From NCBI RefSeq assembly GCF_000264945.2, contig NZ_CP013070.1, positions 1,984,001 through 2,048,000 on the forward strand: DNA of 64,000 nucleotides, read 5' to 3'. The stretch is from Sphingobium indicum B90A (GTDB lineage Bacteria; Pseudomonadota; Alphaproteobacteria; Sphingomonadales; Sphingomonadaceae). The translations under genes were made by a program, and so were the position numbers. The notes beneath the pieces were generated by a model. It saw only the letters and a list, made by a program, of their open reading frames with translations, ran no database searches and was not told where the DNA came from. This document shows positions 4,441 through 59,803 of this stretch, piece by piece; position 1 is the first letter of the stretch; every line of letters starts with the position of its first letter.

Positions 4441-4542
4441 CTCCCCGTTCGCCCTGAGCTTGCCGAAGGGTTTTACTTTCTTTCGAGCGTTGAAGGTGAA
4501 GAGGAAGTAAAGCCCTTCGACAGGCTCAGGGCGAACGGGGGA
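4441..4542. repeat. Palindromic repeat, family 1 (GTTCGCCCTGAGC type), copy 1
   Basis: Left arm 4441-4470 and right arm 4513-4542 are near-perfect inverted repeats with the core GTTCGCCCTGAGC and GAAGGG. The inner part also pairs (TTTACTT with AAGTAAA). Copies with the same arms and a similar interior occur at 33811-33899 and 37471-37566. It is a dispersed intergenic palindrome of a kind common in sphingomonad genomes. Confidence 0.9.
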
Positions 4543-28601: not shown

Positions 28602-28818
28602 CAGCGTGGACAATTCAAGACTTGTCGGACTGAGTGATTTGGGTGGGGAGCGGACGTTCCCCTATTCGTCACCCCTCCCCCCTGTTCGTCACCCCGGACT
28701 TGATCCGGGGTCCCGCTGCCTTGGACGAGGCGGGCGCTCAGACAAGAAAGCGGGACCCCGGATCAAGTCCGGGGTGACGGAAAACCCATTTCCCGACATT
28801 TCGAGTTTGTCCACGCTG
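28602..28818. repeat. Composite nested palindrome containing family 2 repeat, copy 1
   Basis: The outer ends CAGCGTGGACAA (28602-28613) and TTGTCCACGCTG (28807-28818) are perfect inverted repeats. Nested inside is the family 2 palindrome (28688-28778), whose 29-bp arms, beginning GTCACCCCGGACTTGATCC, are perfect inverted copies. Family 2 also occurs at 43776-43865 and 55447-55532, but the outer ends are seen only here. The left flank (28641-28675) also matches the flank of the 43776 copy in inverse orientation. Confidence 0.85.
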
Positions 28819-33792: not shown

Positions 33793-33810
33793 GTCTGGGA
33801 ATGATCCATC

Positions 33811-33899
33811 CCCCCGTTCGGGCTGAGCTTGTCGAAGCCCTCCACTTTCTTCCGATCAAGAAGAAGTGCAGCCCTTCGACAAGCTCAGGGCGAACGGGA
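33811..33899. repeat. Palindromic repeat, family 1, copy 2
   Basis: CCCGTTCGGGCTGAGCTTGT at the left pairs with the inverted arm ending CGAACGGG at the right, enclosing an inner pair ACTTTCTTC / GAAGAAGT. It lies between secB and murJ, ending 15 bp before the murJ start. Confidence 0.9.
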
Positions 33900-33913
33900 G
33901 GAGAGGTCTTGCC

Positions 33914-43739: not shown

Positions 43740-43775
43740 AGGGGCGCTTCGGCCAGTTGCGGTCATCCGTTTTCC

Positions 43776-43865
43776 GTCACCCCGGACTTGATCCGGGGTC
43801 CCGCTGTCTTGGGCTGGGCGCTAGTTTACAAGAAAAGCGGGACCCCGGATCAAGTCCGGGGTGAC
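43776..43865. repeat. Palindromic repeat, family 2, copy 2
   Basis: The arms begin GTCACCCCGGACTTGATCC and end in the inverted copy (43837-43865); both arms are 29 bp and perfect. The right flank (43866-43900) matches in reverse complement the left flank of the 28688 copy, so the repeat unit is larger than its palindrome. Confidence 0.9.
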
Positions 43866-43897
43866 GAATAGGGGAAAGGTCCGCTTCCCACCCCAAC

Positions 43898-46060: not shown

Positions 46061-46230
46061 TAGGCTGTATCGACATTCAGAAGATGGCGAGCCGAAAATG
46101 GTGGTTTTCCGTGACCCGGCGCGCAGCCTACTCAAAGTAGGTGAGCACCGGAAGCACGGAAATTGAAGCGAGGCACGTGACTCGCTTCAACCATTTGCAG
46201 GCCGTCAGGGCTGAATGTCGATACAGCCTA
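46061..46230. repeat. Covarying palindromic element, copy A (170 bp)
   Basis: Perfect 20-bp ends: TAGGCTGTATCGACATTCAG (46061-46080) and its exact reverse complement (46211-46230). Nested inside are AAATGG/CCATTT (46096-46101 with 46191-46196), TTTCCGTG/CACGGAAA (46106-46113 with 46155-46162), CCGG/CCGG, and a terminal hairpin CCTACT-caa-AGTAGG (46127-46141). An extra 10-bp hairpin (46163-46190) is unique to this copy. Copy B at 55204-55348 shares the core but has different, compensated arms. Confidence 0.9.
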
Positions 46231-49613: not shown

Positions 49614-50027
49614 ATGGATCAGGGATTGCCCCATGACGATGCGGCGCGGCCTTTGCGGCCGGCGCTCGCGCTTGCCCTCAGGGGCCGTTGCCCCGCCTGC
49701 GGCGAAGGCCGCATGTTCGCGCGCTTCCTGAAGCCAAGCCCCGCCTGTCGCCATTGCGGGCAGGCGTGGGACGCGTCGCGGGCGGACGATTTCCCCGCCT
49801 ATATCGTCATATTGCTGCTGGGGCACCTGCTCGTGCCGCTGATGATAGAGGTGAACGCGGCGCTGGACATTCCGCTGGGGGTGCAGGCGGCGCTATGGCC
49901 CGGCCTTGCGATCCTGCTCGCGCTGGCGATGATCCAGCCGGCCAAGGCCGCGGTCATCGCCTTCCAGTGGAGCCGCCGCATGGACGGCTTCCGCCAGGAC
50001 CGATCGACATTCAGTCGGGGCGGATGA
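49614..50027 (+). CDS. DUF983 family membrane protein
   Basis: The 137-residue protein has a zinc-ribbon-like N-terminal region with two CxxC pairs (GRCPACGEGRMF and CRHCGQAWD) followed by two membrane helices (YIVILLLGHLLVPLMIEV and ALWPGLAILLALAMIQPA). This is the DUF983 pattern; members often lie near cytochrome oxidase genes, but no such genes are here and the function is unknown. The 3' end overlaps the convergent thioesterase gene by 17 bp. Confidence 0.92.
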   Translation: MDQGLPHDDAARPLRPALALALRGRCPACGEGRMFARFLKPSPACRHCGQAWDASRADDFPAYIVILLLGHLLVPLMIEVNAALDIPLGVQAALWPGLAILLALAMIQPAKAAVIAFQWSRRMDGFRQDRSTFSRGG

Positions 50028-55203: not shown

Positions 55204-55348
55204 TAGGGTGTGTGGGGATTCAGTTCAGGGCGAGGCGAAAATGGTGGAATTCGAGAACCGGCGCGCAGCGTACTTCAGTACGTGAGCACCGGAAGCGCAG
55301 AAGTCCGCCATTTGCAGCCCGCCATGGGCTGAATCCCCACACACCCTA
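55204..55348. repeat. Covarying palindromic element, copy B (145 bp)
   Basis: Perfect 20-bp ends: TAGGGTGTGTGGGGATTCAG (55204-55223) and its exact reverse complement (55329-55348). Inner helices match copy A: AAATGG/CCATTT (55239-55244 with 55308-55313), GGAATTC/GAAGTCC (55246-55252 with 55300-55306, one mismatch), CCGG/CCGG and terminal hairpin CGTACT-tc-AGTACG (55269-55282). Between copies five arm positions and one hairpin position change, all with the partner base. Confidence 0.9.
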
Positions 55349-55446
55349 GTGCGGGGTGGGTGGGTTGACGGTGGGAAAGAGCCGGTGGGGTTATGGCATG
55401 GTCGCGGGGGTGTAGGACAGGGTTTCGCCCACTCCATCCGGGTTTC

Positions 55447-55532
55447 GTCACCCCGGGCTTGACCCGGGGTCCAGCTTCCCCTGGCGCGGCGGAAGAAAAG
55501 AAAGCGGGATCCCGGGTCAAGCCCGGGATGAC
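55447..55532. repeat. Palindromic repeat, family 2, copy 3
   Basis: Diverged copy with arms beginning GTCACCCCGGGCTTGACCC and the inverted partner ending at 55532. It lies 28 bp beyond the stop codon of the GH3 gene. With element B it fills the 596-bp gap between the GH3 and ABC-F genes. The remaining part (54988-55203) shows only a short palindrome, CCCACGCA/TGCGTGGG, at 55118. Confidence 0.85.
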
Positions 55533-55560
55533 GTTATGGGGTGAAGGCCCATGGCCGCTG

Positions 55561-59660: not shown

Positions 59661-59684
59661 CCTCCCCATCGGGAGATGGGGAGG
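59661..59684. repeat. Hairpin repeat, family 6, copy 2
   Basis: A perfect 10-bp stem CCTCCCCATC/GATGGGGAGG with loop GGGA, the same stem as at 10641. It overlaps the start of the long palindrome that follows. Confidence 0.85.
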
Positions 59685-59768
59685 GGGACCGGCCGAAGGC
59701 TGGTGGAGGGGAAGGGGGCACGACCTGCGTATTTCCCCTCCACCAGCCTTCGGCCGGTCCCCCTCCCC
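59678..59768. repeat. Long perfect palindrome (35-bp arms)
   Basis: Arms 59678-59712 and 59734-59768 are exact inverted repeats around a 21-base loop. Outside the arms short CCTCCCCAT-type sequences recur. It lies between convergent genes (lipoprotein and ferredoxin) and could form a strong cruciform or transcript hairpin. Confidence 0.92.
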
Positions 59769-59803
59769 ATGCTTCGCATAGGGAGGAATTTTTTGGGGGG
59801 GAC

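Follow-up and report, generated by a model that had tools for sequence, protein, structure and literature searches.

Two palindromic elements in the 64,000-nucleotide stretch of Sphingobium indicum B90A DNA analysed here (the window) are, with a probability of about two in three, non-autonomous MITEs of the IS427 type, whose core strand would have to fold as a single-stranded molecule if the element is to be amplified or tolerated. In the scheme we propose, an IS5-family (IS427-type) transposase would act in trans on the element ends, duplicating TA at a YTAR target; at some stage on which amplification or tolerance depends, the core strand would fold alone, either as RNA or as ssDNA; spread would be confined to lineages whose pairs match, and resident copies would then decay by one-sided mutations.

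The two copies in the window

Copy A occupies 46061..46230 on the plus strand, which is also its core strand, and is 170 bp long; copy B (55204..55348, plus strand) is 145 bp long and belongs to the GGGTGTGTGGGG arm subfamily. The initial annotation had given these lengths, together with perfect 20-bp arms, and both hold: the arms, TAGGCTGTATCGACATTCAG and TAGGGTGTGTGGGGATTCAG, are complementary at 20/20 positions, each inside its own copy. The left arm, or terminal inverted repeat, of copy A (46061..46080, plus strand) is TA followed by GGCTGTATCGACATTCAG, and the identical sequence on the minus strand forms the right arm (46211..46230); the arms of copy B lie at 55204..55223 (plus) and 55329..55348 (20 bp, minus). 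As first described, the two copies differ at five arm positions (5, 9, 11, 13 and 14), each change being compensated on the other arm, and a sixth compensated pair lies in the hairpin of the conserved core, CCTACT/AGTAGG in copy A (46116..46151, plus strand; 2030116-2030151 on the genome contig) and CGTACT/AGTACG in copy B (55258..55292, plus strand). The palindromes are not due to chance, because the predicted plus-strand RNA folds, -101.5 kcal/mol for copy A (z -13.4) and -97 kcal/mol for copy B (z -13.0; 200 shuffles each), lie some 13 standard deviations below shuffled sequences.

All genes flanking the two copies are on the minus strand, again as annotated: MsrA and an aspartate-aminotransferase-like gene beside copy A, an ABC-F ATPase and a beta-glucosidase BglX-like gene beside copy B. 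The extra hairpin reported for copy A is likewise present (TTGAAGCGAG..CTCGCTTCAA, 46163..46190, plus strand). It is found in some copies only, and its internal position varies: this TTGAA..TTCAA hairpin sits differently in L018, L019, L034, L045, L046 and the window copy, as if it had itself been inserted more than once, to judge from placement. The arms of copy B (55204-55223 and 55329-55348) contain GATTC/GAATC, that is GANTC, the site of the cell-cycle methylase CcrM; those of copy A contain no GANTC.

The window holds other repeats besides. A solo arm of a third type, CAGGACCGATCGACATTCAG, lies at 49995..50014 (plus strand), where a minus-strand, thioesterase-like ORF with weak profile matches, below cut-offs, has its 3' end; the arm is probably a truncated copy that supplies the end of the ORF. 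A second palindromic repeat, of CCCTTCGAC..GTCGAAGGG type, has two copies (33798-33913 and 4443-4540), and a third, of CGTCACCCCGG..CCGGGGTGACG type, has three (43766-43875, 28687-28779 and 55446-55533), one of them about 100 bp to the right of copy B. A perfect 38-bp inverted repeat with a 19-nt spacer is found at 59676-59770.

Insertion sites and a candidate partner

Five sites on Sphingobium megaplasmids, found by BLAST and then aligned, allow filled and empty states to be compared. At three of the five (L201, L202 and L199) TA is single in the empty site and double in the filled one: L201 reads GTC-CTAG-CG when empty and C-TA-element-TA-G when filled; the empty site of L202, TTTAAAG, agrees with TA duplication, as does L199 when set against empty L228 (CCCTAATC). 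For L200 and L217, filled and empty sites agree in insertion point, but the empty one shows a dinucleotide other than TA; TA is also absent from L222, a second empty site for L199. In the records used, the difference between filled and empty spans is 143-144 bp for three sites (L200, L201 and L202) and 145-148 bp for the other two (L199 and L217). The target is best written YTAR: C or T precedes the element in 85 of 88 copies, and A or G follows it in 86 (the count covers copies that begin and end with TA and score 31 or more for the arms, plus own-genome copies; others were dropped). YTAR is an IS5-type target.

The family thus has the MITE traits of terminal inverted repeats and multiple dispersed copies, and it lacks the capacity to encode a transposase, since extracted copies of 123-190 bp are too short. 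The initial annotation had argued against a MITE spread by a transposase, on the ground that ends should then stay constant; that argument fails, given the empty sites, the YTAR target and an insertion sequence with matching ends, while the accompanying remark that the TA ends fit TA target duplication is borne out at the three sites above. A stand-alone immobile RNA gene is rejected on the strength of the empty sites, as is an origin of the arms from the target by inverted duplication, for no arm sequence is seen in the aligned empty sites. Reduced forms also occur. A 24-bp solo sequence in the S. indicum genome (L113:192-215, C1), TAGGCTGTATCGACATTCAGCCTA, consists of the left arm plus four right-end bases, and by its composition could possibly be an excision or deletion footprint; further half or shortened copies are L108, L110 and L116-L118.

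A search for the end pattern TAGGNNNNATCGACATTCAG, with one mismatch allowed, finds it in 14/25 genomes, against one match overall for the reversed control. In genome G014 two such ends lie 823 bp apart (L107), enclosing two overlapping ORFs; the first matches PF13340, the second PF01609 and NCBIfam NF033580, each above its own cut-off, and the transposase scores 154.9 bits against the NF033580 cut-off of 110. The 20-bp ends of this element are TAGGCGGGATGGACATTCAG and TAGGCGGGATCGACATTCAG; a second element, of 854 bp, in G016 (L169) has the ends TAGGGCGGATCGACATTCGG and TAGCGCGGATCGACATTCAG. No conserved MITE core was seen by eye in the L107 element. As tabulated, members of the IS427 group measure 832-865 bp, with ends near 20 bp and two overlapping ORFs, and all listed members but one make a 2-bp target duplication (PMC3281130). 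The two partner elements resemble this group in length and repeat size, and the L107 element also in its two overlapping ORFs, though at 823 bp it falls slightly under the listed range; the MITE itself differs in having no transposase.

The inner part of the ends of both insertion sequences is as in the MITE arms; positions 5-8 are different. Within G014, three of these four bases are not shared between the ends of the insertion sequence and the arm most MITE copies carry, so that any assignment of an exact transposase to each arm type is tentative. The S. indicum genome itself has one remnant end of an insertion sequence with matching ends (L109) and five transposase matches, of which the one examined has other ends. 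On these resemblances the MITE appears to be mobilised in trans by IS5-family transposases of IS427 type. An IS630-type origin, suggested by the TA target, was also pursued and rejected: a DDE_3 search gave IS630-type genes, and 30 such loci had no end pairs of this kind around the gene. At one of them (L103) a complete MITE copy adjoins the gene.

Arms, core and the probable folding strand

Arm sequence is largely a property of the genome. In the Sphingobium-type genomes looked at, most copies carry their genome's own arm: the commonest is TAGAGCCAATCG in G012, TAGGGCCAATCG in G008, TAGGCGGTATCG in G011 and TAGGGCCGATCG in G014, and S. indicum has mostly TAGGCTGTATCG, alongside arms like those of copy B and, in a minority, a GGACCG type. 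Variation between subfamilies and genomes far exceeds variation within them; lineages have different arms, as do the copies within several genomes, but inside any one copy the two arms mostly pair. Two elements, L012 and L013, have one arm from each of two subfamilies.

Whether arm changes are correlated depends on the depth at which one looks. Within young subfamilies (56 copies in nine clusters of at least three, with smaller clusters dropped and the Tom plasmids pooled), arm positions 3-20 depart from the cluster consensus by 27 one-sided and 3 two-sided changes. Between cluster consensuses there are 122 two-sided changes and no one-sided ones (36 cluster pairs, which represent five arm types and so are not independent). 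Uncorrelated arm changes, which the initial annotation had named as evidence against a structured element, are thus present inside young subfamilies and absent between them. Maintenance of the fold in each copy is not claimed, because at the shallow divergence within subfamilies one-sided changes are expected first.

These arm data could be accommodated by a plain MITE, in which the transposase needs equal ends, the interior is passive, and the compensated arms are subfamilies fitted to different insertion-sequence transposases. The largely genome-specific arm types agree with such an element, as does the behaviour of the insertion sequences of this clade, whose ends vary between species and nearly match within one insertion sequence. 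We nevertheless regard it as unlikely, on account of the interior: inner helices, which an end-binding transposase is not expected to read, covary, and the loops are conserved across the class. The three private two-sided changes seen in single copies among near-identical siblings (L008, L026 and L217) invite a different account, templated correction between arms by quasi-palindrome or hairpin-templated repair, with no selection on structure, since three events were judged more than independent double mutation would readily yield. Such correction leaves unexplained both the conserved internal loops and the asymmetry among one-sided changes described below, and we consider it very improbable as the source of the pattern.

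The interior is shown by comparison of copies to be an old core, conserved in sequence and in structure, the whole element being one long hairpin with conserved internal loops. A covariance model was built from 32 copies, namely L206 and 31 of the 34 non-redundant copies that lack the extra hairpin (all chosen from 109 extracted elements); in that alignment two-sided changes occur in 30/51 pairs. A class-wide alignment of 88 copies (101 rows from 82 selected sources, after removal of opposite-strand duplicates) has two-sided changes in 29/33 inner pairs, and its many internal changes are of several pair types. Standard pairs make up 91.8% of arm and 91.7% of inner positions, against 52% and 74% when shuffled and 30-46% when slid, figures that are inflated by the kinship of the copies and by the fitting of the alignment to structure. 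From Sphingobium through rhizobia to other families, covariation is seen in helices lying outside the terminal inverted repeats. The covariance-model check proposed at the outset does find covariation in further copies, with the internal loops conserved. Since a mobile element can also give rise to covariation, covariation by itself is no proof of an RNA gene.

Which strand folds may be asked of the one-sided changes themselves. A cruciform in double-stranded DNA, under selection as a site that binds protein or responds to supercoiling, should accumulate G-T and A-C mismatches equally, since both strands extrude; counting the two, position by position, is thus a simple strand test. Ten clusters (63 copies) yield, for paired sites read on the core strand, one-sided transitions that make 53 G-T and 17 A-C. 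When each cluster and site is allowed a single count, 41 distinct events stand against 16 (p=0.0013), of which the arms contribute 16 against 6 and the inner pairs 25 against 10; position by position, G-T is the commoner at 24 and A-C at 7 (p=0.003). That the asymmetry extends to inner pairs within subfamilies is a further point against the plain MITE. A small control of unpaired sites gives 5 against 8 (paired versus unpaired, Fisher p=0.048), and there are discordant clusters, one of 11 copies with 6 of each and one of three copies with no G-T and 3 A-C. In the class alignment, which being fitted to structure favours G-U, G-U exceeds A-C at 16/17 informative arm pairs and 23/26 inner pairs.

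In 101 rhizobial and related elements (124 were found by the core pattern alone, and 23 with weak or duplicate arms were dropped) the arms hold 91 G-T and 28 A-C mismatches, or 78 against 27 or 55 against 24 after related copies are collapsed. The excess sits in one eight-position block, 37-44 bases left of the core (76 against 12; 15 against 16 elsewhere), and because of this the rhizobial set alone may show a fixed difference between left and right ends; so local an excess is what a plain MITE could also display. Within that block the arms of L302-L420 have G-T pairs together with a frequent G-A mismatch, a fixed left/right difference, as if the two ends were told apart.

The near-perfect long inverted repeat and the symmetric target would suit a cruciform, as would the lack of strand preference in rhizobial arms outside the block (15 versus 16); the 41 to 16 imbalance in subfamilies and the preponderance of G-U at inner pairs of the class alignment would not, and the prospect that a cruciform is the selected form seems to us very slim. 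The mismatch counts favour, with moderate confidence, one folded strand, RNA or ssDNA, over the double-stranded cruciform. Of the two molecules that the initial annotation supposed to be under selection, folded RNA or cruciform, a folded molecule is thus upheld by covariation and the cruciform is disfavoured by the G-T excess, part of which is local.

Distribution, gene ends and relatives

In the S. indicum genome the exact core pattern finds 9 copies and the relaxed one (up to 3 mismatches) 16, with no matches to the reversed pattern. The covariance model returns 78 rows, reduced to 42 distinct places on 3/4 contigs because most copies match on both strands (150 of 2167 candidates were scored). 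With one mismatch, the core pattern is present in 19/41 genomes, every one among the 25 of the same genus, and absent from all 16 genomes of other genera. The family core motif is GCGnAG(C/T)GTAC..GTAC(G/A)TGAGCAnCGGAAG. Among 29 loci from other genomes the primary motif is found within four substitutions in 22, and in 3 it is missing even at six.

The covariance model matches 32/385 genomes and 29/277 genera in a class-wide sample (E<=1e-4). A pattern scan of named genomes yields at least 119 stretches, the matches listed including Mesorhizobium, Phyllobacterium, Devosia, Agrobacterium, Ochrobactrum, Asticcacaulis and Stappia, along with Sphingopyxis, Sphingosinicella, Sphingobium, Rhizobium and others; ten selected genomes of that scan have 2 to 65 covariance-model rows each, some counting both strands. 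In a sample of the phylum 43/398 genomes matched, 22 of them outside the class, though so pair-rich a model may score other long hairpins. The plasmid records matched (23 in one search, 31 in another) are alphaproteobacterial by genus name. Copy B has no match in E. coli, and a phage origin was rejected, copy A having no match in a phage collection. Rfam at gathering scores finds one tRNA in the window and nothing in the element, and at E<=1 gives two matches in nine loci with copies, none overlapping the element.

The copies have a marked position relative to genes, as called by a crude score from length and GC3. In the S. indicum genome (29/30 loci scored), 27 loci with both neighbours called comprise 15 convergent, 12 tandem (6 in each direction) and no divergent pairs. 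The end of the right-hand antisense gene coincides with the element's final three bases in 12/21 cases, and that of the left-hand sense gene with the element's first three in 5/21. Among 81 rhizobial and related elements the right-hand antisense stop codon lies 49-51 bases from the core, which are the last three bases of a typical element, in 50/69, and the left-hand sense stop lies at the mirror position in 4/36. Where the stop is TAG, the element's own TAG end could supply it; the TA target is not the whole reason for this placement, because the stops at that position are TGA in 20 cases and TAG in 18, about equally often, with TAA less frequent (7). Tandem genes are antisense to the core strand in 40 cases and sense in 5 (97 elements), so that gene bias and folding bias point to opposite strands: in rhizobia the neighbours read the strand opposite the core. 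Elements with no sense gene called upstream show the G-T excess as well (37 versus 14). Replication strand was considered as a separate cause. The core lies on the C-rich strand in 34/39 copies of Mesorhizobium sp. AR07 (G427:C1), in 16/38 in the S. indicum chromosome, where no such bias exists, and, weakly, in 9/13 in A. vitis chromosome 1; it was set aside, as in Mesorhizobium (20 copies looked at) it appears to follow gene orientation.

Several known repeats resemble the family. RUP, ERIC/IRU and Correia/NEMIS are bacterial MITEs with TA ends; they too are multicopy elements of 100-200 bp with target duplication, predicted (as transcripts) to form one long hairpin, and ERIC is reported to have an orientation-dependent effect on mRNA stability (PMC2229807). 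They live in other hosts. For the present family an IS5-family partner with IS427 features is proposed; the arms vary from one genome to the next, and the conserved core is shared by several families of the class. The remaining likenesses are by description. Bru-RS1 and Bru-RS2 of Brucella are likewise repeated palindromic intergenic elements of alphaproteobacteria, of 103-106 bp against 123-190 bp for extracted copies here (PMC2267715, PMC10800456); an Ochrobactrum genome carries the present family. RIME and Sm repeats, of unknown function, are likewise intergenic, present in dozens, and conserved in sequence and structure in rhizobia (PMC2573895, PMC2245857). CIR repeats (Caulobacter, Brucella) are about 110 bp, conserved in alphaproteobacteria and share GANTC with the arms of copy B, but have two stem-loop arms joined by a linker in place of one hairpin (PMC2229807). 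Searches of one open-access library listed no earlier description of this family; in part of the class it has possibly been noted already under local repeat names.

A more far-reaching reading, which we offer tentatively and think doubtful, sees a class-wide, possibly wider, hyperparasite of insertion sequences: a single conserved folded core would persist from Sphingomonadales to Rhizobiales and in many further families, the ends would be swapped time and again for those of the resident IS5-type transposase, the core strand would fold single-stranded to propagate, and copies would be kept at stop codons in one orientation. If true, it would imply an RNA or ssDNA step not expected of a DDE transposon derivative. 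In any case this IS5/IS427-type MITE combines a folded core of unexpected age with ends specific to the genome and a placement biased towards gene ends. The interiors of bacterial MITEs are usually regarded as debris between two ends; here the interior has conserved loops and compensated helices common to a class, and it is the ends that change with the genome. That raises a concrete question for this family: whether the fold of a MITE, and the strand that folds, may be needed for movement or for tolerance at gene ends.
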